IMG/VR virus record: IMGVR_UViG_3300033148_000881
Span: 1 to 38,015 of that record
DNA from: a virus
Length of the DNA: 38,015 bases
Strand: one strand, 5' to 3'
The notes under the pieces were generated by a model, which had not been told where the DNA came from, searched no databases, and saw only the letters and a list, made by a program, of their open reading frames with translations. Made by a program: the position numbers and the translations under genes. Shown here piece by piece: positions 20,378-37,301 of the stretch (the first letter of the stretch is position 1; each line of letters starts with the position of its first letter).

Positions 20378-22585
20378 ATGATCCCAACAAATTCAAGTGG
20401 CACCACAAATGGATGTGACAACATATCTTCTAATTGTGTAATATGGCAGGGTCCTGATATTGCATGTATAGACCTATGTGCCGGAGATACAATTAGTGAA
20501 GTTACTGCTAAGATAGCACAGAAAGTTTGTGACATTATCACAGATGGAGTTGCAGCTAATCCGGATTTGACTGGATTAGATCTAACATGTTTAAATATAA
20601 AAGGGGTAACCCCAACAGAATTGGTTCCTGTTTTACAGGCTATGGTAAATCAAATCTGTGCAAATACTGGCGGTGGTAGAGGTAGTGAAGGTAGTAGTTT
20701 GCCAAATATGACATTACCTGCTTGTATGCAATATAATGATGCAAGCGGAAACCCAGTAACAGAATTACCATTAGATCAATTTGCTACATTAATTGCAAAT
20801 CAAGTATGTACGAATTTAGCAAGTATTAATACTATAAATTCTACTTTAACAAGTCTTACTACAAGAGTAGATGTTTTAGAAGCATGTGTATTACCTTGTT
20901 CAGGAGCAGTTGTGGAAGCACAAATTGTTCCAACTTGTGTAAGTAATGTAGGTGTACTAACAGATGTATCTGTAGTTGTATTAGCACTTGAAAGTGCTTT
21001 TTGTGCTTTACAGAATGCAGTAGGATTACCTTCTACAATTGGTAGTGCAATATCTCAAACATTTATATCTGGTTCAACAACACAGTTATCAGATTCAAGT
21101 TCATCATATAGTGGAGTAACAGGATGGAATAACAATCCTTCAACATTAGCGCAATCAGTTCAGAATGCGTGGGTTGTTATTGATGATATGTATAACGCAA
21201 TATTAGATATACAAAATAACTGTTGTCCAGGAGGATGTGATGGTGTAACATTTGGTTACTCAACAACTAATACTCTTAATACATCTACGGGTGTAATTAC
21301 AGATATTGTATTCAACTTTACTCCATCTATAATCCCAAGTACATTTAATGATTCTGCAGGTTATAGTCAAGTAACTATTACTGATGCTGACGGAGCAGTA
21401 GTTAACACTGTTGTTAGTGTATCAAGTTTACAAAATACTCCTTCCGGTGTATCTATCAATGTATCTTCATTGAATGTATATAATGATTTAAGTGTTAATG
21501 TTGACTTTAGAGTAACAGACGGATCAGATACATGTGAAGGAAATCAATCAAGTGTTGTAGCAGGTATTATACCATGTCCTTCTCCAACATTATCAGCAAT
21601 AACTCAAGACGGTTTGACAGTTTCATTCTCAAATACATTAGGTACAGCAGCAACTTATATTTTAGATATTCTTGATGGAGCAAATACAGTGGTAGCTACT
21701 ACTACAATTAATAACGCTCCTGCACTTATATCACATACATTTACAGGATTAACTGCTAATACAGCATATAGTTTAAGAGTAACAGTTCAGAGATCTGGTG
21801 GAACACAAGTTTGTCCAGAAATTGGATTTACAACTGAAGAAGGAGCTGCACCATGTTCAAATGGTATGGATGTAGTATTTGTTGTAGATTACACTTCTTC
21901 AATGACAGGTGTAGTTGAGGATATTAAAACAGGAGCTACAAGTTTAGTTAATACAATTGATAGTGTAAGTGGATCTAATAACTATAGAATTGGATTAGTA
22001 ACTGCAGATGAAGGAAATGTTAATCAACCAGCATATAATAGTTGTGTTGATTATACAGGTCTTCCAAGTACTCAAAGAATTATTAACTTTGGTGGTGGAA
22101 CTTATCAGTTCTACACTGCATGGGAAATGATGGGTACAAATAATGGAACAACATTTACTTCACAAGTTCAAAAACTAAATAAAGGAGTTGATGGCACATG
22201 TATTAATATGGGTCAAGGAGCAGGTGGTCCTGAGCCAATGGATATTGCAATAGAAAATGTAGTTGGTACATCAGAGTTTACAGGTGCATTCAGAAGTAAT
22301 GTTGCTAAATATATATTAGCATTTACTGATAATTTACCAGGAGGTGATCAAGATCAAATGAATATGACTGTTTGGTCAAGAATTCAATCTTTAATTACTA
22401 CTTGTAATAATGCTGGTATTAAAGTATTTGTATTAGGTACTGGTACTGCTTTAGACTGGGATAATGGAGGAACTATTACACCAATATATCCATGGAGAGA
22501 ATTAGCAATTCAGACTGGTGGTAATTATACAACTAGCTCAGATGCAACAACAATCTCTAGTGAAATTATAGCAGGTTGTTCATAA
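20378..22585 (+). CDS. Virion protein with Fn3-like and vWA domains (735 aa)
   Basis: The N-terminus (NCVIWQGPDIACIDLCAGDT, then ISEVTAKIAQKVCDII) is a conserved module seen in phage structural proteins and probably anchors the protein in the virion. A long helical/beta region with many cysteines follows (to about 285), then a beta domain (about 290-395) and an Fn3-like domain (about 399-489, ending in LTANTAYSLRVTVQR). From about 498 to the end is a vWA domain: MDVVFVVDYTSSMTG contains a MIDAS-type motif, D504-x-T506-x-S508, and KYILAFTDNLPGG supplies the usual later Asp. vWA domains bind proteins through a metal ion, so this probably displays an adhesion module. The second gene of the unit also carries an Fn3-like domain. 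Function inferred: host surface binding or virion decoration. Confidence 0.78.
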   Translation: MIPTNSSGTTNGCDNISSNCVIWQGPDIACIDLCAGDTISEVTAKIAQKVCDIITDGVAANPDLTGLDLTCLNIKGVTPTELVPVLQAMVNQICANTGGGRGSEGSSLPNMTLPACMQYNDASGNPVTELPLDQFATLIANQVCTNLASINTINSTLTSLTTRVDVLEACVLPCSGAVVEAQIVPTCVSNVGVLTDVSVVVLALESAFCALQNAVGLPSTIGSAISQTFISGSTTQLSDSSSSYSGVTGWNNNPSTLAQSVQNAWVVIDDMYNAILDIQNNCCPGGCDGVTFGYSTTNTLNTSTGVITDIVFNFTPSIIPSTFNDSAGYSQVTITDADGAVVNTVVSVSSLQNTPSGVSINVSSLNVYNDLSVNVDFRVTDGSDTCEGNQSSVVAGIIPCPSPTLSAITQDGLTVSFSNTLGTAATYILDILDGANTVVATTTINNAPALISHTFTGLTANTAYSLRVTVQRSGGTQVCPEIGFTTEEGAAPCSNGMDVVFVVDYTSSMTGVVEDIKTGATSLVNTIDSVSGSNNYRIGLVTADEGNVNQPAYNSCVDYTGLPSTQRIINFGGGTYQFYTAWEMMGTNNGTTFTSQVQKLNKGVDGTCINMGQGAGGPEPMDIAIENVVGTSEFTGAFRSNVAKYILAFTDNLPGGDQDQMNMTVWSRIQSLITTCNNAGIKVFVLGTGTALDWDNGGTITPIYPWRELAIQTGGNYTTSSDATTISSEIIAGCS

Positions 22586-25811: not shown

Positions 25812-26777
25812 ATGGGAGTATCACAAAAATATAGAACTTTTAATCAATTAATGGAGGATGTATCTATTGATTTTTCTACGTATGCTTTAGAAGGAATGAT
25901 AGAACCTGCACAACTTATTAAAGTTGCTCTTAGAGTTAATTATGATTTGGGTTTACGTATACATAGAACAAAAGAAGTAGTTATAGATATAGAACATGGA
26001 AGAGGTCAACTACCTATGGATTTTCAATATCTAAATTATGCATTTAGATGTGGTGAATATACTATAAATAACACAATGCCTTCAGGTACACATGTAGAAA
26101 CTTTTAATGATGTACCATATGTGCCTGCACCAGGAGATGCAGAGCCTTGTAAAGATGGAGAAGCATGTAAAGATGTCTGTGTTATAAAAACTTGCAATGA
26201 TAAAAATGAATATCAATTAGTACAAAGAGTTGGTCCAAGTCAGTTTAGATCTTTTACTACATGGACTGAATTAAGAATAAAAGATGTAAATGATAAAGTT
26301 TGCTATTGCCCAAGTTTAGGTGCGCAAGCATTAGATATAGCAGAAATTAAAGATGGCTTTTTAGTTACAACATTTAGAACAGGAAAAGTATATTTAAGTT
26401 ATCAAGGAGCAATGGAAAATGCACAGGGAGATTTATTAGTATTAGATCACCCATACTGTAATGAATATTATGAATATGCCATAAAACAAAGAATACTTGA
26501 AAATATGATTTGGAATGGTGAGAATGTATCACAACAATTAAATCTAATAGAAGCAAGATTAAGAGCTTCAAGAAATAATGCATTAGGTTTTGTGAATACA
26601 CCAAACTTCCAAGAGATGAGAAAAGTATGGAACATGAACCGAAGAGCACAGTATCATAATTACTATAATATGTTCTTGAGTTATGCACCAGCTAATCCAA
26701 CTCTTGCAGTTGCACCTCCTATTGCACAATCACATCAAGGGTCAACAACAGGCACTAGTTCATGTCCAACTTGTTAA
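25812..26777 (+). CDS. crAss-like tail tubular/adaptor-type protein (321 aa)
   Basis: The N-terminus KYRTFNQLMEDVSIDFSTYA followed by PAQLIKVALRVNYDLGLRIH and VVIDIEHGRGQLPMDFQYLN follows a pattern conserved in crAss-like phages ('KYRTFDxL-x-x-V-xDLxxY ... LIKVAxRVxYDLGL'). A Cys-rich acidic loop at about 115-133 (PGDAEPCKDGEACKDVCVIK) interrupts the core and may be a lineage-specific insertion. The C-terminal half is helical (AIKQRILENMIWNGENVSQQ) with a Pro/Ala/Ser tail ending in CPTC. Such proteins build part of the neck/tail tube between portal and muzzle. It lies 13 nt before the muzzle gene. Confidence 0.83.
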   Translation: MGVSQKYRTFNQLMEDVSIDFSTYALEGMIEPAQLIKVALRVNYDLGLRIHRTKEVVIDIEHGRGQLPMDFQYLNYAFRCGEYTINNTMPSGTHVETFNDVPYVPAPGDAEPCKDGEACKDVCVIKTCNDKNEYQLVQRVGPSQFRSFTTWTELRIKDVNDKVCYCPSLGAQALDIAEIKDGFLVTTFRTGKVYLSYQGAMENAQGDLLVLDHPYCNEYYEYAIKQRILENMIWNGENVSQQLNLIEARLRASRNNALGFVNTPNFQEMRKVWNMNRRAQYHNYYNMFLSYAPANPTLAVAPPIAQSHQGSTTGTSSCPTC

Positions 26778-26790
26778 CAAGTAATATATT

Positions 26791-29700
26791 ATGGCAAAAA
26801 AGAAGAATACTACACCACAACCAAGGGGACAGGGGAGTTCATCAGTAAATACTAATTCATTTACTAAAGGGATGAACAAGGATGTAGCACCATCCTTTGA
26901 GCAACCAAATGCATGGTGGCATGCAAGAAATGCTGTAAATAATTCAGAAGATGGAGATGTAGGTTTAATTGGTAATGAACCATCAAATTTATCTTGTGGT
27001 GTAATTCCTTATACTGTAATTGGTGCTATACATAGATATGGAGATGAATGGATTGTTTTCTCTACAGATGATATTAACTCTGAGATAGGACGTTTTGATG
27101 ATAGTGAGTGTACATATGAAACACTTGTTAATGATCCTTGTTTAAATTTTAAAAAGAAATATTTAATTACAGGTGCCGCAAAAGAAAATTTTGATTGTAC
27201 TTGGGAAGTATATTGGGATGATGCAAACAACCCATCTCGTGCCATGAATATAGATGATATTCCTTGGAAAAAGGTTAAAATATCAGGGCCAGATGTTAAT
27301 GGTGATCCTTGCGTTGAATATCAAATTATTGAACCTAAACAATTAGACTGTGAACAAATAAGACTAGCACCACTACTTGATACACCTTGTGTAAAATTAA
27401 GTAAGGCAACTGATGGTGGTATGATACGCAATGGTACATATCAAGCTTTTGTTGCATATGTAGAGAATGAACAACGTGTTACAGATTATATAGGTATATC
27501 TAATCTGCAGACAATATTTAGTCATGAAGGTGGTAATGGTTCTTTAAATATATCTTTAAGTAATTTAGATCAAGATTACTTTTATTATGAGTTAGTTATA
27601 CTCAGAAGAAACCAAGGTCAAACTTCTGCTAAAAGAATAGGTTTATACAGTACTGAGCAAAGTGATATTAATATTGATTTCATAGATGAATCACTAATAC
27701 CTATTGATTTAAAACAAATTCCATTACGTAGCCCAGCATATGAAAAGTCTGAGTCTATGTTTGTAGTTAATGATTGGTTAATAAGACAAGGGCCAACTGA
27801 GCAATTTGATTTTAACTATCAACCTATAGCAAATCAAATACAAACTAATTGGGTTGTAAATCAGCTTAGTTCAAAGTATTATTCTTTAGGTGGTAATAAA
27901 CTTGGGTTTATGCGTGATGAACAATATGCATTTTTTATTAGATGGATATATAATACAGGTGAAAGATCATCTTCATATCACATTCCTGGTAGAGCTCCTG
28001 AGTCATATACATTACCAAATGGGGCCACATATCAAGAAAATGAAGTTATAAATGGTGCTAATGTAATAAATACAGATGAAGGTGAACCTTTATTTAAAGT
28101 TTACAATACTGCTTCATTTACTCAAACAAATATAAACGAACCCCAAGAAGATAACTCTTTAGTTATTGCAAGAGGAAAAATGGGATATTGGGAGTCTACA
28201 GAGTTATACCCAAGTAATAGACCAGATATATGGGGAGACTTATGTGGTAAACCAATTAGACATCATAAAATGCCAGATGAGTCATTAGGCGGTGCAGACT
28301 CACCATTACATATAAGTACAACTAATGGTGATAATATTAATATTGTTGGGGTTGAGTTTACAAATATTGGAAGACCAACTAATAATGATGGTACATTTAT
28401 TCAGAATATTGTTGGTTATGAAATACTAAGAGGGTCTAGGCAAGGAGCAAGATCTATACTTGCAAAAGGTATGTTTAAAAATATGCGTAAGTATAGAATT
28501 CCTGACTCAGAAAATATATTAGGAGAATCACAAGGTCTATATCCTAACTATCCATACAACTCATTAGAAGATGATATTTTCTTTTTTGATGCAGGACCAA
28601 ACCCAGAATCAGAAGATACAAGAACAGGGGGATGTGATAACTTTACTCAGTCTTTAGATAAATATCCTCCTTTAAGTGGTTATACTAAGGACGTATTTAC
28701 TTTTAGTGCTCCAGACTTGATGTTTTCAAAACCATTTTTAAATGCTTATGAAACTAAAATATATGGTAGTATAAATGGTAAAGCTCAAGGAACATTTATA
28801 CCATCTGAAGATCACCCACAATTTAAACTACTAAGACCAGTAGCAGCTAACTTAGCAGCTATTATAGGTTTGGGATATGCACTGAATGCAGTACAAGGTA
28901 CTGAGTCAGTAAACACTAAAGCTTTACAAATTAACAACCAAGCATATGCACCATTTATTGGGGTGAGTAGTTCTGTAGGTTATCCTACTTTAGCAACTGC
29001 TGGTGGTGGTGCTTTATCACTATTTGGTTTAATAGAAGGTTTTTTAATAAATAGTTTATTAGATGGTATTACAGATGTAGCTGATTTATATAGTGGTGGT
29101 GTAGCATCACAAATTAAAAAAGAAGCTATAAATACATCTAACATGTTAAAAGCATCACTAGTTCCTGGTGCTTACGGAGGTGGTAGAGATATGACTTCTA
29201 CATTTGATAAACCAGAAGGTGCTTTACCTACAGCATTAAAAGTTATTATAAGCATATCTATGGCACAGAAAAATATAGCTATAGGTGCTGGTGAAATAAT
29301 TGATTTATTTTACAATTTAGTTAGTGAGCATGATTTTGTTTATAAGTATAACTCTACAGGATTCTATAACTCATTTACTAAAGTAAATCCAAATAATATT
29401 TTTAGAACTAAGAATAATGATTCAAATTACTTAGGTTCTTCTTTTCAAACTTTTGATGGGATTAAATATAAAATTAATAATTTATTTAGACCATCTACTA
29501 TTGCTGTATCAACAGTAAATGAACTTGATGATCCAACAGGACCAAAAGATAATTCTAGATTTAGTTTGGGTGGTACAGTAGTTAATGGAGGTACAGTAGA
29601 CTTTCTTAACGCTTATATGGAAAACCCTAGATCTGCAGATAAAATTCAAAGTAATATATCTGCATTATATGGAGCATTAAAATTTAATTTTGATAATCAA

Positions 29701-32700
29701 TATGGTCAACTAGATGGTGTAAAACAAATTATGATGAGGGGTTGTGTGGAACTTATTGATCCAGATAAACCAGAAACTTTTAAGTATACATCTAGTCCAA
29801 TATTTAGTGGTGATGTTTCTATTAATAGATATACTGAAAAGTGTATCATGCCAATCTTTACAAGATTTTTACAAGGTCAACCAAATGGTTATTCTTTTGA
29901 TTATAGCTTATATGTTAACATACCTTACCCAAGATTTTGGCTTAATTCAACTAAGTTTGATATAAGTGGTATTGCACGTGAGATAGCCACATTAGGTTTA
30001 GATCCAGGAAGCTACGCACAAGAACTTCCTACTAATAAATATTATTTAGATAGAGGTTATGATAACTGTCAAAATACAAGTTTATTTGGTAGTTTCTTTG
30101 GTGGTGGAAATGATTTAAACCCTGCATGGAATATGGAGTATGCTTACATGTATACACATATCAATGGTATCAATGAGTTTTTTGTAGAATCAGAGATTAA
30201 TTTAGCATATAGAGATTGGGAAGATATGCCAAGTAAAAGGTTTTATGACCCTTATGAGTTTAATGACTTAGGTGTATTATTCCATCCTGATCAAATTAAA
30301 GATGACAATTTCTATAAGTATGATGACTCATTATCTGCTTCTAAGTTCCCAACCCAAATGGGATCATTTGGTCAAGTACAAGCAAGAGATTATGATCCAC
30401 TAGTTTCAGAGACGTGTTACACTTCATATCCTAAAAGACTAGTATATTCATTACAAGCACAAGAAGAATCAAAAAGAGATTATTGGAGAGTATTTTTAAA
30501 CAATAATTATAAAGACTTTAAGAATGAGGTAAGTGTTATTAAGCCTATTAACAAAAGCGGTGCATTAATATTTTTCCCATACTTATCACCTCAAATGTTC
30601 CAAGGTCTGGATACTTTGAAAACACAATTAGATACTAAATTAACTATAGGTGATGGTGGTTTATTTAGTCAACCATTTCAAAATGTAGCAAATGCAGATG
30701 TATCTAATGAGTATGGATCTTGTGAAAGTTTAAGAGGTGTTACAAATACTCCATTTGGTTTATTCTTTATTTCACAACAACAAGGTAAAATATTTAATTA
30801 TGCCGGTAAGGGATTAACACCAATATCTAATGCGGGTATGAAATGGTGGTTTAATAAATACTTACCATCTAGATTTGTAAAACAATTTCCTGAATCTGAA
30901 AATACTCATTGGGTAGATAATCCAGTAGCTGGTGTAGGTTGTCAAGTAATATGTGATGTAGTTGATGATATTGTCTACTTTATGAAAAGAGATTATCAAC
31001 TTAAACCAGAATATGTTGCAGGTGCTGAGTTTTATAACTATGATGCAAAACCTGTAGGAATAGATGTACCATGGCAAAATAAAAAGCTATTAGTAGATAT
31101 AGGTGATCCATTATACTTTGATGATTGTTCTTGGACTATCAGTTATGATCCTAAAGCAAAGGCTTGGATATCATTCCATGATTGGCATCCTGAATTAGCT
31201 TTACCTAGTATAAATCATTTCTTTACTACTAAGACAACAACTACAACTGTTCCTCAGTGTCCACCGGGTTATAACTTTAATCCTACAACTAATATGTGTG
31301 AGATAGGTGTAAATGAAAGTTCACCTGCTCAAGTTATAATAGATAATATAGCAGCTGATATTAGTGGTGGCCCTGTTGCTTGTTTAGTTGATGTTGTAAT
31401 ATCAATGGATGTATCAGGTAGTACAAACCAAAATGGTAGAAGAGCTGCTCAACAAACTTGGATGACTGCATTTTTAACAGATCCGCAGATAACTACTTTA
31501 ATGAGTAATAGTCAAATGCAAATTGGATTTGTTGCTTGGGATGATGCTTCTAATATAATGGGTATACCTGATGGTAGTGGAGGTACTGTTACAATGAGTC
31601 ATACTGTAACTGAGACACAAGCTACAAACTTTTTTAACGCTAACTGGTCTGGTAATGGTACTAACGTAGCAATGGGATTAAATATAGGTAATTCAATACT
31701 TACTAATCCAGCTAATTCTACATTGGGTGATAGAACAGCAAATCCTAACTATAGAGCTATTCAAATCCTTGTTACAGATACTACTACAGCACCAGGAAAT
31801 AATGTAGGTGCTCCTTACACTTCTGTAGGCGCTGGTACTGCACCTGCATATCAATTTGTTTATGCAATGTTTTGTGGAGCTAATAGCTCTGCACCACCTA
31901 ACCCTAATGTATTAGATGATATATCTATGTCATCGGGTCCTGTAAATGTTGATCCATTCCAATATGGTATAGATGCGTCAAATCCAGCAACATTCCAAGC
32001 TGTAGCAACAGCAATTGCAGGAGCTGTATGTGGAACAGATTATGATTGTGAATGTCCTGCAGGATATACATTAGTTTATCCTGATTCTAATGGTCTCTTT
32101 ACTCAATCAAGTGGAACATGTACTGATGTACCAGGAGAAGCACCTATTTGTAGAAAAGTAGAATGTGAGTGTCCAACAAGTACTGTCCCTGGTTCAAGCA
32201 CAACAACATCAGGCACATGTCCAGATAGTGCTCCTGAAATATTTTTAATAGGTGATCCAGCATGGATTGATCCATCACCATTAATATGTAACTATTTTTA
32301 TTTTGATAGTACTACACCTAATTATCAAGTGGGTGGTTTTTGGAGACATAATCATAGATGTGATTCATTTGCTAATTTTTATAATGTAGATTATCCATGG
32401 GAGATTGATTTAATATCTAACACAGGACAAACTGTAAACACTATAAGAAGTTTTGAGTATCAACTAGAAACCTATGTTTATAAGGGAGATCCTCAGTATA
32501 ACATGTGTGGTGGTGACAAATGGGAAGATCTTACATTTAATTTTGATGCTGCTATTGTTTATAATAATGATCAAACATCAGGATTACTGGTACTTAATGA
32601 GCAACCTGTTAATAGTCCATGGGCTAACCTAGACTATCCTATTGTAACACCAAACAATATAGAGATACTTGTATCTAAAGTTGAACATAAGTTTAGATTT

Positions 32701-32949
32701 AATCAGTTCTGGGATGTTACAAATGATAGAGGTGAATTTACAAATGCAGAACAACCAATATTTAATACGGATTGTAATGGATATGTTAGACCATTGAATA
32801 CAACTAATCTTAATTATTTCAAACCTCAAACACAGCGTAAGAAATTTAGACATTACTCTAATCATGTTTTATTACGTAGAAATAATTCTGGTAATAGAAA
32901 AATGATGTTAAGATTAAATAATACTAAACTATTACTATCTAAAAGATAA
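26791..32949 (+). CDS. crAss-like muzzle/tail stabilization protein with inserted vWA domain (2052 aa)
   Basis: Closes the end of the short tail and contacts the host. The start (SSVNTNSFTKGMNKDVAPSF, then EQPNAWWHARNAVNN) is the signature of crAss-like stabilization/muzzle proteins. The body runs to about 1480 with beta-propeller-like blocks (GFMRDEQYAFFIRWIYNTGE) and the typical AWISFHDWHPELALPSINHF. The typical end resumes at about 1850: FWRHNHRCDSFANFYNVDYP, WEIDLISN, and FDAAIVYNNDQTSGLLVLNE. Between them sit a Cys-rich CPPGYNFNPTTNMCE (from C1490), a vWA domain (about 1530-1748) with a perfect MIDAS motif D1540-V-S1542-G-S1544, and a second Cys-rich part (CECPAGYTLVY, CECPTST). The insertion is absent from the muzzle type as I remember it. 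Its TAA shares one base with the next ATG. Confidence 0.87.
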   Translation: MAKKKNTTPQPRGQGSSSVNTNSFTKGMNKDVAPSFEQPNAWWHARNAVNNSEDGDVGLIGNEPSNLSCGVIPYTVIGAIHRYGDEWIVFSTDDINSEIGRFDDSECTYETLVNDPCLNFKKKYLITGAAKENFDCTWEVYWDDANNPSRAMNIDDIPWKKVKISGPDVNGDPCVEYQIIEPKQLDCEQIRLAPLLDTPCVKLSKATDGGMIRNGTYQAFVAYVENEQRVTDYIGISNLQTIFSHEGGNGSLNISLSNLDQDYFYYELVILRRNQGQTSAKRIGLYSTEQSDINIDFIDESLIPIDLKQIPLRSPAYEKSESMFVVNDWLIRQGPTEQFDFNYQPIANQIQTNWVVNQLSSKYYSLGGNKLGFMRDEQYAFFIRWIYNTGERSSSYHIPGRAPESYTLPNGATYQENEVINGANVINTDEGEPLFKVYNTASFTQTNINEPQEDNSLVIARGKMGYWESTELYPSNRPDIWGDLCGKPIRHHKMPDESLGGADSPLHISTTNGDNINIVGVEFTNIGRPTNNDGTFIQNIVGYEILRGSRQGARSILAKGMFKNMRKYRIPDSENILGESQGLYPNYPYNSLEDDIFFFDAGPNPESEDTRTGGCDNFTQSLDKYPPLSGYTKDVFTFSAPDLMFSKPFLNAYETKIYGSINGKAQGTFIPSEDHPQFKLLRPVAANLAAIIGLGYALNAVQGTESVNTKALQINNQAYAPFIGVSSSVGYPTLATAGGGALSLFGLIEGFLINSLLDGITDVADLYSGGVASQIKKEAINTSNMLKASLVPGAYGGGRDMTSTFDKPEGALPTALKVIISISMAQKNIAIGAGEIIDLFYNLVSEHDFVYKYNSTGFYNSFTKVNPNNIFRTKNNDSNYLGSSFQTFDGIKYKINNLFRPSTIAVSTVNELDDPTGPKDNSRFSLGGTVVNGGTVDFLNAYMENPRSADKIQSNISALYGALKFNFDNQYGQLDGVKQIMMRGCVELIDPDKPETFKYTSSPIFSGDVSINRYTEKCIMPIFTRFLQGQPNGYSFDYSLYVNIPYPRFWLNSTKFDISGIAREIATLGLDPGSYAQELPTNKYYLDRGYDNCQNTSLFGSFFGGGNDLNPAWNMEYAYMYTHINGINEFFVESEINLAYRDWEDMPSKRFYDPYEFNDLGVLFHPDQIKDDNFYKYDDSLSASKFPTQMGSFGQVQARDYDPLVSETCYTSYPKRLVYSLQAQEESKRDYWRVFLNNNYKDFKNEVSVIKPINKSGALIFFPYLSPQMFQGLDTLKTQLDTKLTIGDGGLFSQPFQNVANADVSNEYGSCESLRGVTNTPFGLFFISQQQGKIFNYAGKGLTPISNAGMKWWFNKYLPSRFVKQFPESENTHWVDNPVAGVGCQVICDVVDDIVYFMKRDYQLKPEYVAGAEFYNYDAKPVGIDVPWQNKKLLVDIGDPLYFDDCSWTISYDPKAKAWISFHDWHPELALPSINHFFTTKTTTTTVPQCPPGYNFNPTTNMCEIGVNESSPAQVIIDNIAADISGGPVACLVDVVISMDVSGSTNQNGRRAAQQTWMTAFLTDPQITTLMSNSQMQIGFVAWDDASNIMGIPDGSGGTVTMSHTVTETQATNFFNANWSGNGTNVAMGLNIGNSILTNPANSTLGDRTANPNYRAIQILVTDTTTAPGNNVGAPYTSVGAGTAPAYQFVYAMFCGANSSAPPNPNVLDDISMSSGPVNVDPFQYGIDASNPATFQAVATAIAGAVCGTDYDCECPAGYTLVYPDSNGLFTQSSGTCTDVPGEAPICRKVECECPTSTVPGSSTTTSGTCPDSAPEIFLIGDPAWIDPSPLICNYFYFDSTTPNYQVGGFWRHNHRCDSFANFYNVDYPWEIDLISNTGQTVNTIRSFEYQLETYVYKGDPQYNMCGGDKWEDLTFNFDAAIVYNNDQTSGLLVLNEQPVNSPWANLDYPIVTPNNIEILVSKVEHKFRFNQFWDVTNDRGEFTNAEQPIFNTDCNGYVRPLNTTNLNYFKPQTQRKKFRHYSNHVLLRRNNSGNRKMMLRLNNTKLLLSKR
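31258..32230 (+). other. Segment encoding the putative Cys-vWA-Cys insertion in the muzzle gene
   Basis: Codes for residues about 1490-1813: CPPGY-type Cys motif, vWA domain, second CPAGY-type motif and a Ser/Thr-rich linker (STVPGSSTTTSG). It is preceded by a Thr-rich linker (TTKTTTTTVPQ). The paired Thr/Ser-rich linkers at both edges mark it as a separable domain block. Boundaries are approximate. Confidence 0.7.
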
Positions 32950-35900
32950 TGAAGAAGAAATTTACACATACAGAGAGAAGAGGATTACCTGGAGGACCTA
33001 ATGAATATGTTACTCATATTAGTGGTTTGTTTAGTGTTGAGGGTTATAAATCAGATAGTCCTGATAAAGACAATCCGTTTAATCTTATTGACTCAGGAAA
33101 TATCACAATGGAAGGTGTTGAATTTCCAGTTATGGGTATAGATAATCTTGGTAATACGGAAATGATGCTGCCTCAAAACAATTATGAATTTCCTGGTGAT
33201 ATGGTTTTAGAAATACCTATGGCTCAAGATGGTACTGAAACCCCAATGCCAACTCAAATGTTAGATGAGGTTGTAGTTACAGCACCTAAGAAAAAAGAAA
33301 GTTTATTTAGTAAAGTAGGTCATGGTGTTTTAGATGGACTTGGTTTAATTCCTGGACTTGGTGAAATAGCAGATGGTGCTAATGCACTTTGGTATCTTGC
33401 TCAAGGTGATAAGGTGAATGCGGGCTTATCTGCTGCTGCAATGATTCCATTTTTTGGTTGGGGTGCAACAGCTGGTAAACTTGGTTTAAAAGGAAAAAAA
33501 GCTTTAGATGCTGCTAATGCGGCAAGAAAATTATCAAAGGCAGATTTAAATTATGCTAAAAGTTTAGGTTTAGATGTAAAAGATTATAATAATCTAGTTG
33601 ATCAATATAATGCTGCTAATAAAACATATAGATCAGTAAGCCCTCAAGCTGATGTATTAAATGATATAAACTTTAGAGAGGCTGCACAAAAAGCTGGTGT
33701 TGATTTTACTAAAACTGCAACAGATAATACAGACCTTCTTAAATATATGAGTACATCTATACCATATAAAAAATTAGGTAATGTATATACGGATGCTGCA
33801 GTTAAAGGTACTAATGATGCAAGATCATTTTTATTCACTTCACCTAATAAAGAATTTACATCTTTTTATGCACCTGATGGGTACATGGCTAAGATGCCTT
33901 TATTTACAGATGATATAAATAAATTAAGTATACCGGAAATAACAAACAGACTTAAGTTTGGATCTAGAGCAAGTGAGTATCCGTTTGATGCATTATTAGA
34001 TAATAAATATATGCAGAATACTCTTAAATCAGGAACAAGGGTTTCTATGCCTCCAGCAAGTAAAATTGGTGTACAAGAAAATACTGTTCAATTTATAGGT
34101 AATAGAGGAGAAAGACTTTTTGATCCCAACACGGTTGAAATATTACCAGTTAGAGAAGCACTTAAAAATCCAAATTTCCAAAAAGGTAGAGAGGTACCAA
34201 AGAGAAAAGGTGTTAGAAAGAATCCTGATGGTAGTGAGTCAACACATCTTATGGCTACAGAAACTTTTGATGGTAAGAACTGGTTCTCATTTCCAACATT
34301 ATTTCAAAATTCAGATGGTACTTGGATTGACATGTCTGATAAACCTTGGCAAGAAGCATATGAAGAAGCTAAAAAAAGAGGAGAGGTTATAGAGTTTGGT
34401 GCTGATAAAGAAGCAGCAATTAAGTTTGGAGAAGGTTCTTGGAAACCTAAAATGCAAAAAGGTCAAGAGACTCCACCAGAAAAATGGCAGGATACAATTA
34501 ATTATATTGATCAACAAAAATTAAAAAGAGCAATTGCTCAAGCAGAAAGTTTAAATGGGGAGTTAATGAAAAACCCATACTCTACGGCATCTGGATTATA
34601 CGGTCAACGTTTTTCAGAACTAGAGAAAGGAAAGTTATATGAAGGTACAAGAGATGAGTTTATAAAAGATATAGATGCACAAAATAGAATATTTGATATG
34701 AGGTTGAATGAAGGTGTTAAAGTAAATAAAACAACACCTTTATTAAAAGATGCATTTGATTTAATGAATGAATATAAACCTCAAATAAAAGATTTTGATT
34801 TTGATTACTATGATATAATCTCACTATCAAACTTTTTAGGTAGACAAGGTACCAGAGAATTTTTTGGAAATGTAATCAGGGATGGTAAAGATTTATCAGA
34901 AGTATTTCCTAATCTATATGGACCTAATGTTAAACAACCAAACAAAACACCTGAAGAATATTTAGGTATTACAAGAAAATATTATAGACAATATGCTGGT
35001 GAAATTCCTGTTGTTGCTCAAGATAATACAAGAGTTAATATGCCAGTAATACCTATCATTGATAGAAAACCTGCACCTACCTCACGTTATTCTGATTTAC
35101 TATTTACAGAAAATGATTTTGATATTATAGGTGATGATAAAGATGAATTTAATCCTTTTAGTACTATACCAATTGATACATTAGAAGTACAAAGAGATAA
35201 TACAAATGTTGTTGACACAAATATATTACCAGATTATTTACAAAAATATGAAAAGTTAAAAGGACCTGATTTTTCAGATGAGGAGTTTAAAAATATACTA
35301 TTTGATGTTTCACAAGAGTCTGAGTTTAATGAATATCAAGATCCAGTACTAATAGCTGATTTTATTAAGAAGTCTAATTACTACGCAGAAGGATGGAAAG
35401 ATATGACAAGTGCTTCTCCTAATGAGGTGAAAGATTTACAAGATGTATTAGTTAGAAAAGGTTATGATGTAGGTCCAACAGGTGTAGATGGAAAATACGG
35501 TCCAAAAACATATGCTGCACATAGAGCAATGGTTGATGATATTAATTTAAATCCAAATTCTATATCAAGATATTATAAAAAATATGGTGCAAATAATTCA
35601 TCTGAAGTAAGAGGTATTCAAGAAAAATTAGTTAAGCTTGGTTATATGGCTGAAACATTACCTAATAAAAATACTACTAGTATTGATGGTAAGTTTGGTG
35701 ATCAGACTAAAGAAGCATTAGAACGCTACAACACAGAAAATGCAAAAGATGATCCTAAAGCTACAGTCTTTAATGATATTCCAAATCTATTAGAAGAAGA
35801 TAGATGTGCTGCAGGTATGTGTGTAATACTTGAGAGAAATAATGTTCTTACAGAAGCTATAGGTGTTAAGTATAAGGATGCATGGGATTTATATGAATCT

Positions 35901-37301
35901 ATGGAAAATGCAGATAATAGTGAAATGGTCTATAATATATATGATGATCCAAGATTTAACAGAATTAATGAGGAAACAGATATAAATGATTTAAGAAAGA
36001 TCACTAGAAATGTAAAAAAAGAATCACAAACAAAAGCTAGTGATTATGCCATAGGAGATATTGTAGGTTTATTTTGGGATGGTTCATCACATCATGCAGA
36101 AACATTAAAATCAAAAACTTATAATACACACAGTGGATTTGTTTCTGACATAGTAGATGGTGTTCCTATTATAACACATAATGTAAATGGTAGAGTGTTA
36201 CAACAACCATATGATCAACTTACTACTGCTTGGATTAGAAGACCAAATGAAGATGTAGAAGTAAGATCTAAATATAATGAAACTGCTGTAACAGAAGCAG
36301 ATGGTGAAGTACCTAATTATAATGCTATTAATAATCTTCAATTAAGATATAATACTCGGTTTGAGGGAGACCGTTTAAATGAAGTTGAAACCATATTTAA
36401 AAGAGCAAAATATAATTCTCATAAGATACCAGAAATTTTAAATTCTGATGTTGATCAAGATTGGCTTGAGTCAGCAACAGTTGCTATTACAGGTGTTGAG
36501 TCAGGTATAGGTTTGAATGCACCAAGAACTGTAGAAGAAGCTAGAGATGATTACTTTGGTTTAAAAGGTATTGCATATGATATTAAAGATAAAAAAGAAT
36601 CAGATATATCATTAGGTGTAGGAAAAACTAAATTTGCTTCTCTAGATAAATTTGCTAGAGAATATTTTGATATAAATAGTCCAAAAGATTTAGCTAATGA
36701 TACAAAAGCAGTTGACGCTATAAGTTATACTCTTACTAAAAACTATGAGTTATTTAAAGATTATGCAGAGCAGTATCCAAGTTTAGGTTTAACTGAAGAG
36801 GACATTAAAAACATGGCTGTATTAGCATATAATCAAGGTAGTAATAGACTTATAAATACTGGTAGAGTAGATGATACCCGTACACCTGAAGAAGAAGTAG
36901 AAGCACTAAGATCATTGTATAATGCTACCCTAGCGGATAGAAGTTCTACTAACTATAGATTTTTACCTGAAATTGTGTATGATGTTGCTTTAGCTACTGG
37001 TATAGAAGAAGAGTCACCAAGTTATATTAACAAGGTTAATACATATATAAATGATTTATATCCTTCACAAGTAGCTGATGCTGGTGTTAATATAAATAAT
37101 CAACCTCCTAGAATTTTAGCAAAAGGTGGAGAGTATGGTATATATAAAAATTACATTGAAGGGTTATATGATGGCACTGACAAAATACAATTTGCAGAAC
37201 ATATATATGATAAACTAAATAGGAGACACTATAAACAAGCAAAAAATGCAGCAATGGCTGCTCCAAACTTTATAATGACAAACATAATTAAGAATTCTTA
37301 A
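32949..37301 (+). CDS. Multi-domain virion-associated peptidoglycan hydrolase (1450 aa)
   Basis: Probably ejected or exposed at infection to open the cell wall. Order of parts: a virion-type N-terminus (1-115; SGNITMEGVEFPVMGIDNLG, FPGDMVLEIPMAQDG, DEVVVTAPKKK); a hydrophobic Gly-rich segment (118-185; GLGLIPGLGEIADGANALWY, LSAAAMIPFFGWGATAGK) like the pre-toxin segment of polymorphic toxins; a block at about 420-500 (HLMATETFDGKNWFSFPTLF); a lysozyme/transglycosylase-like domain with E533 (AQAESLNG ... YSTASGLYGQRFSE); two peptidoglycan-binding repeats (825-862 and 885-930, GVDGKYGPKT and SIDGKFGDQT); a Cys/His peptidase-like region (C953 or C958, H1061, H1077); and a second transglycosylase-like domain (E1184 in TGVESGIG; AYNQG at 1293-1297). 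The start overlaps the muzzle stop (TAATG). Individual domains are inferred from motifs; catalytic activity is untested. Confidence 0.78.
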   Translation: MKKKFTHTERRGLPGGPNEYVTHISGLFSVEGYKSDSPDKDNPFNLIDSGNITMEGVEFPVMGIDNLGNTEMMLPQNNYEFPGDMVLEIPMAQDGTETPMPTQMLDEVVVTAPKKKESLFSKVGHGVLDGLGLIPGLGEIADGANALWYLAQGDKVNAGLSAAAMIPFFGWGATAGKLGLKGKKALDAANAARKLSKADLNYAKSLGLDVKDYNNLVDQYNAANKTYRSVSPQADVLNDINFREAAQKAGVDFTKTATDNTDLLKYMSTSIPYKKLGNVYTDAAVKGTNDARSFLFTSPNKEFTSFYAPDGYMAKMPLFTDDINKLSIPEITNRLKFGSRASEYPFDALLDNKYMQNTLKSGTRVSMPPASKIGVQENTVQFIGNRGERLFDPNTVEILPVREALKNPNFQKGREVPKRKGVRKNPDGSESTHLMATETFDGKNWFSFPTLFQNSDGTWIDMSDKPWQEAYEEAKKRGEVIEFGADKEAAIKFGEGSWKPKMQKGQETPPEKWQDTINYIDQQKLKRAIAQAESLNGELMKNPYSTASGLYGQRFSELEKGKLYEGTRDEFIKDIDAQNRIFDMRLNEGVKVNKTTPLLKDAFDLMNEYKPQIKDFDFDYYDIISLSNFLGRQGTREFFGNVIRDGKDLSEVFPNLYGPNVKQPNKTPEEYLGITRKYYRQYAGEIPVVAQDNTRVNMPVIPIIDRKPAPTSRYSDLLFTENDFDIIGDDKDEFNPFSTIPIDTLEVQRDNTNVVDTNILPDYLQKYEKLKGPDFSDEEFKNILFDVSQESEFNEYQDPVLIADFIKKSNYYAEGWKDMTSASPNEVKDLQDVLVRKGYDVGPTGVDGKYGPKTYAAHRAMVDDINLNPNSISRYYKKYGANNSSEVRGIQEKLVKLGYMAETLPNKNTTSIDGKFGDQTKEALERYNTENAKDDPKATVFNDIPNLLEEDRCAAGMCVILERNNVLTEAIGVKYKDAWDLYESMENADNSEMVYNIYDDPRFNRINEETDINDLRKITRNVKKESQTKASDYAIGDIVGLFWDGSSHHAETLKSKTYNTHSGFVSDIVDGVPIITHNVNGRVLQQPYDQLTTAWIRRPNEDVEVRSKYNETAVTEADGEVPNYNAINNLQLRYNTRFEGDRLNEVETIFKRAKYNSHKIPEILNSDVDQDWLESATVAITGVESGIGLNAPRTVEEARDDYFGLKGIAYDIKDKKESDISLGVGKTKFASLDKFAREYFDINSPKDLANDTKAVDAISYTLTKNYELFKDYAEQYPSLGLTEEDIKNMAVLAYNQGSNRLINTGRVDDTRTPEEEVEALRSLYNATLADRSSTNYRFLPEIVYDVALATGIEEESPSYINKVNTYINDLYPSQVADAGVNINNQPPRILAKGGEYGIYKNYIEGLYDGTDKIQFAEHIYDKLNRRHYKQAKNAAMAAPNFIMTNIIKNS

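Follow-up and report, generated by a model that had tools for sequence, protein, structure and literature searches.

Tail-tip recognition of hosts by crAss-like phages remains largely open. In phiCrAss001 the muzzle is a hexamer at the tail tip, its crass domain was proposed to contact the cell surface, and insertions into the crass and IG2 regions, by which muzzle length is known to vary, were proposed to change the surface properties (PMC10172136). In SU10 the nozzle beta-propeller bears a functional insert at its edge, a dock loop of blade 1 to which the fibre of the same phage binds (PMC9509320), and in crAssE-Sib a C-type-lectin-like receptor-binding protein is diversified by the reverse-transcriptase mutagenesis of a DGR (PMC11054128). 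Von Willebrand A (vWA) domains with a complete MIDAS are found in pilus-tip adhesins (Mfa5 of Porphyromonas gingivalis, SpaC, RrgA) and in integrin I domains. vWA domains also occur in eCIS tail fibres, for which swapping of attachment domains was described (PMC12923769), and in other phage proteins contained in BFVD (a virion structural protein of PaMx28 and a VWFA protein of RcTitan). In the limited literature collection searched, no paper was found that joins crAss-like phages with von Willebrand domains, that links MIDAS and von Willebrand with a phage tail, or that links phage PA14 and von Willebrand with receptor binding.

Here we analysed a stretch of 38,015 nucleotides from a crAss-like phage (IMG/VR record IMGVR_UViG_3300033148_000881, positions 1 to 38,015, one strand), hereafter the window, the muzzle of which carries a vWA domain in a slot of its C-terminal part. 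In contrast to the vWA domains of eCIS and other phages, which reside on fibres or separate proteins, this domain lies inside the muzzle itself. Unlike the crass and IG2 insertions, the slot is located after IG2 and holds a recognisable vWA or another domain, and it differs from the SU10 insert, since no vWA is mentioned in the relevant passages on that nozzle. The fold and the complete MIDAS are shared with the pilus-tip and integrin domains, the tip position being inferred for the muzzle, whereas the window domain belongs to the gate protein of a phage, undergoes exchange as a cassette and shares only 12-18% identity with them. As in crAssE-Sib, a putative recognition protein of a crAss-like phage is diversified, there by mutagenesis of another gene and here by exchange of a whole muzzle domain, which would add a route for changing host recognition beside the reverse-transcriptase system. 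Thus phage and eCIS vWA domains and variation of muzzle length were known, and the new element is an exchangeable slot for a putative adhesion domain in the muzzle itself. A natural plug-in site in the gate protein, together with phage pairs differing sharply there, makes the question of tail-tip recognition directly testable.

The muzzle gene and the inserted block

The open reading frame at 26791..32949 (+ strand, 2052 aa), which holds the slot, encodes a Crassvirales muzzle, as shown by homology along gp44 of phiCrAss001 and by the neighbouring ring gene. Profile comparison with hhalign of the window muzzle family (16 sequences) and the phiCrAss001 gp44 family (8 sequences) gave Prob 100 and E 2.4e-72 over 1168 columns, covering template residues 1-1342. 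Directly upstream lies the ring-protein gene (25812..26777, +; Pfam CrAss_Ring_1, E 3.9e-8, 33.5 bits, cut-off 27), and the order ring to muzzle is that of gp43-gp44. By this homology, we take the window muzzle to be hexameric and at the tail tip. The two proteins differ in that gp44 has 1371 aa and only a tight turn at residues 1233/1234.

Relatives were collected in three similarity-ranked IMG/VR scans (the best 79 of 295 relatives, the best 80 of 267, and 65 of 65). The muzzle C-terminus was present in 222 loci (denoted by L numbers), 115 of them distinct by their last 300 residues; the muzzle of L003 is 100% identical to that of the window. A tree of the slot flanks comprised 112 rows, without L160, L037 and L055, which miss a flank. 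Slot labels (frame, empty, other) were assigned by hand from length and sequence. The tree is of the quick kind, unrooted and with a warning of some long branches, thus gain versus loss at the base of the family stays unresolved.

The sequence-only reading had proposed that a vWA block with Cys-rich, EGF-like flanks is inserted at 31258-32230, between HDWHPELALPSINHF (muzzle aa 1463-1477) and WRHNHRCDSFANFY (aa 1851-1864). Judged against relatives without it, the extra block comprises about 360 residues (about aa 1483-1848, nt 31237-32334), so the proposed interval was slightly short, and all of the named motifs were confirmed at their residues (CPPGY at 1490-1494, starting at nt 31258, DVSGS at 1540-1544 and CPAGY at 1755-1759). 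On the upstream side the block is preceded by a conserved segment, aa 1448-1482 (WTISYDPKAKAWISFHDWHPELALPSINHFFTTKT; 31132..31236, +), which aligns with gp44 up to residue 1233 and in which T1449, S1451, H1463, D1464, W1465, P1467 and F1477 are invariant over the 71 rows of the muzzle alignment. Downstream follows the conserved muzzle C-terminus (WRHN... to the end; 32341..32946, +), with a mean column identity of 72% in 17 sequences.

In phiCrAss001 the block would fall between gp44 residues 1233 and 1234, in the tight turn '...SEFYAFK|DGKMWEQF...', where the alignment may shift the split by about one residue. As IG2 spans residues 318-1021 (PMC10172136), the slot is another site, located after it. 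From the list of domains in that paper and from the strand pattern we infer that the slot region belongs to the propeller part of the C-terminal muzzle. The same site carries a short turn in all eight muzzles of the phiCrAss001 group (crAss001, cr126, cr85, cr128, phi14:2, cr55, cr118 and cr6) and in four of four further ones (Leptolyngbya phage Lbo-JY46, csAssE-Sib, phi17:2 and Fpv1), and an empty turn of 18-27 aa was found in 15 of the 112 tree rows. The block is hence a true insertion; its presence in all relatives would have refuted the claim, and it is absent from the 15/112 rows and the 12/12 other crAss-like muzzles. The same counts rule out that a vWA is universal in muzzles. An assembly or frameshift artefact was likewise ruled out, because many independent contigs carry the block in frame.

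The vWA domain is held by a Cys-rich frame in two parts. The first, at the start of the block, consists of a Thr linker and the Cys pair of CPPGY...CE (C1490, C1503; 31237..31302, +) and is kept in the frame-only relatives L036, L073, L065 and L109. The second (C.CPAGY...PICRKVECECP...GTC...ICNY; aa 1753-1850; 32047..32340, +) is kept in frame-only relatives as well. That the frame is braced by disulfides is an inference which we regard as likely. Its proposed EGF-like nature rests on weak profile scores only: Pfam cEGF reached 13.5 bits (E 0.066) in the window, below the cut-off, and passed it solely in the relative L058, in three stretches (26.8 vs 26.6 bits), and an alignment of L058-type inserts weakly matched the EGF chain of protein S (E 0.072) in a search of solved structures.

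Fold and MIDAS of the slot domain

AlphaFold2 modelling of aa 1200-2052 from 71 sequences gave a mean pLDDT of 84.1 and a pTM of 0.57, and the vWA domain itself (aa 1528-1750; 31372..32040, +) was predicted with pLDDT 91-96. With this pTM of the combined model, how the domain is positioned relative to the muzzle body is uncertain. VIA-align (model residues about 329-551) returned 50 rows with Z from 19.2 to 17.1, the best being the ANTXR2 vWA (7n1o; Z 19.2, rmsd 2.4, 173 aligned), and among them were the vWF domain of Mfa5 (6tnj; Z 18.6), SpaC (6m3y; Z 17.7) and integrin I domains (about 18); identity in the pilus-tip and integrin rows was only 12-18%. RrgA (2ww8) was matched by Foldseek (E 1e-4), and good alignments to the model were also obtained for BFVD entries of Virus NIOZ-UU157 and Podoviridae sp. 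ct1h53. The vWA domains of the calcium-channel alpha2-delta subunit and TFIIH are in the same VIA-align list, therefore the fold alone is no proof of adhesion.

Pfam VWA_2 scored the window domain alone at E 0.0032 and 18.5 bits, below the 27-bit cut-off; as the fold match is clear, we read this as a limit of sensitivity. Across 52 homologous domains, Pfam at E<=0.01 reported VWA in 20 and VWA_2 in 18, the sole other family being DUF1194 (3/52). Thus the earlier domain call held, with the Rossmann-type fold predicted by the model and not seen in a solved structure. Searches for close relatives of the insert elsewhere returned none: solved structures searched by sequence gave only weak matches (best E 0.41), a phage genome search at E 0.01 gave no match, 17 pattern matches in genome contigs included no relative, and a search of viral contigs with the vWA alone returned four loci which, by contig names and offsets, are muzzles already in the set.

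The predicted DxSxS motif (D1540, S1542, S1544) was also upheld, and two further MIDAS residues that had not been named, T1624 and D1663, are present and conserved. Counts were made on an alignment of the window with 70 of 99 non-redundant rows, in which each of the three residues of the first motif (D1540-V-S1542-G-S1544; 31408..31422, +) is found in 53 of 53 vWA rows, and T1624 (31660..31662, +) and D1663 (31777..31779, +) each in 52 of 53. In the tree set, DxSxS is present in 73/73 rows labelled vWA, a label given partly by eye. The 53 rows are the clearer set: 13 vWA-type, degenerate or tandem rows (L040, L046, L057, L077, L096, L107, L112, L114, L115, L122, L123, L204, L213) are outside this alignment, as are the beta-sandwich and other non-vWA occupants, and some slot vWAs outside the 53 do lack the MIDAS (L046, L057, the second vWA of L107 and the vWA of L096). 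In the model, the first strand (aa 1532-1540) runs up to the first residue of DxSxS, T1624 comes just ahead of helix 1626-1637 and D1663 just after strand 1654-1662. Such a placement by strand and helix is the canonical MIDAS layout. The complete five-residue MIDAS is therefore shown in sequence, and the geometry of its side chains and the binding of a metal are inferred.

Two cysteines bracket the domain, C1531 and C1747 (31381..32031, +), both in columns at least 90% conserved over 52 members. They could form a closing disulfide, although the pairing is only inferred; VWF A domains have a similar closing disulfide. Over the 53 rows, mean pairwise identity was 0.66 in the flanks, 0.49 in the frame and 0.37 in the vWA. 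Length changes are frequent near the MIDAS motifs, after aa 1547 (31/53 rows, up to 29 aa), 1620 (21) and 1678 (44), but they also occur at aa 1589 (15) and 1718 (22) and in the frame at 1765 (49), so we give those near the motifs no weight as evidence.

Loss, exchange and replacement in the slot

The slot behaves as an exchange site, found empty, with the frame alone, with frame and vWA, with frame and another domain, or with two domains in tandem; loss, exchange and replacement are each shown. Labels in the 112 rows were vWA (73), empty turn (15), Cys-rich frame alone (9), beta-sandwich (6), degenerate vWA (2), L071-type (2) and five singletons, among which are tandems of a degenerate vWA with a vWA (L107) or with a beta-sandwich (L096). 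These two tandem occupants measure 822-833 aa in the slot, and their degenerate vWA has no MIDAS. The flank tree requires 16 changes of label, against a possible minimum of 10, and 13 changes in vWA presence, eight of these 13 being forced by starred branches. Empty slots stand beside the vWA rows L086, L091 and L092 in a starred group, and the frame-only rows L073, L036 and L075 are nested in a vWA clade. At the DNA level, 660-672 nt of vWA are missing from L036/L075 and L073, the sequences on both sides of the gap are 87-89% identical to those of L066 and L076, and the losses in L036 and L073 have different junctions. Thus an in-frame removal of the vWA that spares the Cys-rich frame is possible.

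Exchange of vWA alleles was clean at the DNA level between L006 and L007. Their DNA is 97.3% identical over 11,762 bp up to L006:14123, just past the DxSxS codons, although the codons ahead of the motif already show some differences, and similarity resumes at L006:14721 (96.6% over 1,190 bp), yet the enclosed vWA cores are only 38% identical at the protein level; the differing core corresponds to aa 1547-1747 of the window muzzle (31429..32031, +). The L006 vWA is 82% identical to that of the window, and so are its flanks. More generally, flank identity exceeds 0.85 in 34 pairs, and in 10 of these the identity of the vWA cores is below 0.5. When the cores were grouped at 50% identity, the group with the window allele (5 rows) needed four changes forced by starred branches (4.8 when shuffled), and the nine allele groups overall were clustered on the tree (14 changes, least 8, shuffled mean 26.7). 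Hence the vWA alleles are both inherited and exchanged.

The same pair contains a second abrupt replacement, at L006:15925-16727, near the start of the ORF that matches window positions 32949-37301. This is the gene after the muzzle; the replacement lies past its conserved start, and Pfam gave the product no clear name.

One replacement of the vWA by another domain is the L058-type insert (7 sequences, 6 in the tree), modelled with a mean pLDDT of 60 and a core of about 70-87. The top Foldseek row was an anti-sigma-factor domain (E 2.9e-4), followed by mostly sugar-binding or glycoside-hydrolase rows at E of about 1e-3 to 1e-2 (glycoside-hydrolase, CBM35, CBM6, lectin and PA14). VIA gave a rhamnosidase at Z 7.7, a mushroom lectin at 7.1 and PA14 at 4.9, the best being under the safe level of the tool, and Pfam PA14 (E 0.099) was below cut-off. 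On this soft, model-based evidence we tentatively regard the insert as a beta-sandwich resembling carbohydrate-binding modules. Pfam gave no clear name for the occupants of L071/L126, L119 or L107, and our labels con071 and jelly119 are impressions from sequence only. In a deep clade of 14 rows with muzzles of 2211-2801 aa (L112, L114, L115, L119, L122, L123, L125, L129, L130, L141, L144, L145, L156, L204), the muzzles are longer than the slots explain, so further length is carried elsewhere.

As a control we compared 33 close pairs among 52 full-length muzzles. Mean identity exceeded 0.80 in 25 of 41 windows of the alignment and was lowest at aa 701-750 (0.41) and 751-800 (0.47). For the vWA (aa 1551-1750) the means were 0.58-0.65, and each of the four windows that cover it had 10/33 pairs under 0.5. 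Similar variability was seen at aa 801-850, 901-950 and 1051-1100 (0.65, 0.63 and 0.67). The vWA is therefore one of several variable places in the muzzle and not the most variable. The most variable stretch, aa 701-850 (28891-29340, +; mean identity 0.41-0.65), is Gly/Ala-rich and hydrophobic by eye and lies in a region aligning weakly with the crass domain.

Such variation could be taken to support a structural filler, a ligand-free block that serves to stabilise the hexamer or to fill space, its exchange being neutral recombination in a tolerant loop. In favour of this are the other muzzle stretches that also vary strongly in close pairs and the known length variation through crass and IG2 insertions (PMC10172136). 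Against it, the MIDAS residues are kept in 52-53 of 53 rows while mean vWA identity is 0.37, and a structural element that the muzzle needs would hardly be lost cleanly and with two different junctions. We consider the filler very unlikely.

Proposed binding role and the fibre-borne vWA

Our preferred reading is that the slot vWA is a metal-dependent, exposed and exchangeable binding module with a ligand that is probably on the host surface. A binding role had been suggested from sequence alone, as an exposed receptor-binding or docking module. It is not shown, and we hold it to be likely because cassette loss, exchange and replacement occur at one site; exposure, metal, ligand and the location of the ligand on the host cell are all inferred, without binding or virion data, and surface display in particular rests on homology to phiCrAss001. 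A receptor-binding module should be exchanged between close relatives, and this was met (10/34 pairs; L006/L007). Against binding to the host speaks the absence of the block in 15/112 relatives, and the host of the window phage is unknown. Muzzle relatives L244, L245, L246 and L247 are in MAG bins named Campylobacteraceae, Pseudomonadales and Sphingomonadaceae; they are probably phage contigs swept into the bins and no evidence of host.

In the proposed mechanism, the muzzle would be a tail-tip gate with one permissive hairpin turn in its C-terminal part, at which the Cys-rich frame would present a cargo domain, which in the window muzzle is a vWA with complete MIDAS. Arranged as a ring at the tail tip, these domains may bind a host-surface protein or another acidic ligand through a divalent metal, in the manner of pilus-tip and integrin vWA domains. 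Exchange of the cassette comprises loss of the vWA with the frame kept, its swap for a beta-sandwich or another domain, and the switch to a strongly divergent vWA allele, the junctions lying close to the conserved DxSxS strand on one side and to the closing Cys and the frame on the other.

The window encodes a second vWA outside the slot, in a fibre-like protein of 735 aa (20378..22585, +) with its own C-terminal vWA (aa about 498-735, motif DYTSS; Pfam VWA E 3.9e-6, 27.6 bits, cut-off 23.8) and an fn3-like stretch below cut-off (E 1.2e-4, 22.6 bits, cut-off 25). Fibre relatives keep the first 486 aa or so and swap the C-terminus, with forms of about 1200 aa in L032, L055, L057, L058, L071 and L081. 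In 1962 distinct ORFs of the sampled loci, the muzzle vWA profile matched only muzzle ORFs (two truncated) and the fibre vWA profile matched none of muzzle length, so a module shared by muzzle and fibre was not seen.

This protein bears on the docking alternative, in which the slot domain binds another phage protein, such as the fibre, and not the host. For docking speak the edge loop of the SU10 nozzle beta-propeller, which docks a short tail fibre (PMC9509320), the fibre-like vWA protein as a possible partner, and the observation that L055, L057, L058 and L071, which have no canonical slot vWA, all carry the fibre form of about 1200 aa, in which the C-terminus is a different one, although shared ancestry could explain this. 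However, the frame-only L036, L073 and L075 keep the fibre vWA (VDYTGSM), and conversely the fibres of L032 and L081 end in another C-terminus although a vWA is present in their muzzles. Moreover, the muzzle vWA of L006 and L007 differs while the upstream 11.8 kb including the fibre gene are 97% identical, and the two profiles do not cross-match in the 1962 ORFs. Docking thus remains a rival to host binding, albeit an unlikely one.

We also doubt that the domain is an environmental tether, which by weak sticking to particles, mucus or extracellular polymer would raise the encounter rate without being the infection receptor. An accessory adhesion function would fit with the domain being missing or degenerate in some relatives and substituted by other domains in others. 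Ig-like domains displayed by other phages are a precedent, and modular adhesins of gut phages are treated in a 2026 paper (PMC13370021). Nevertheless, the strict conservation of five metal residues and the exchange of alleles in close relatives suggest a specific and contested ligand, and one would hardly expect to find a general tether on the genome gate. We therefore judge this reading unlikely.

Host binding could have a bolder form, which the evidence does not exclude and which we put forward as a possibility only: the vWA may be a gate trigger that couples metal-dependent capture of the receptor to opening. The domain would lie in the same muzzle part as the channel gate loop, and a ligand would shift the vWA as in the integrin type. 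If so, phages would swap triggers by recombination at the slot, and a new surface molecule would start the release of DNA. Finally, a further phage protein related to a vWA family was observed in the neighbourhood of a muzzle without the block, as csAssE-Sib (L230) has a Ro60-related protein annotated just after the muzzle and two tRNAs; the Ro60 family has a vWA.
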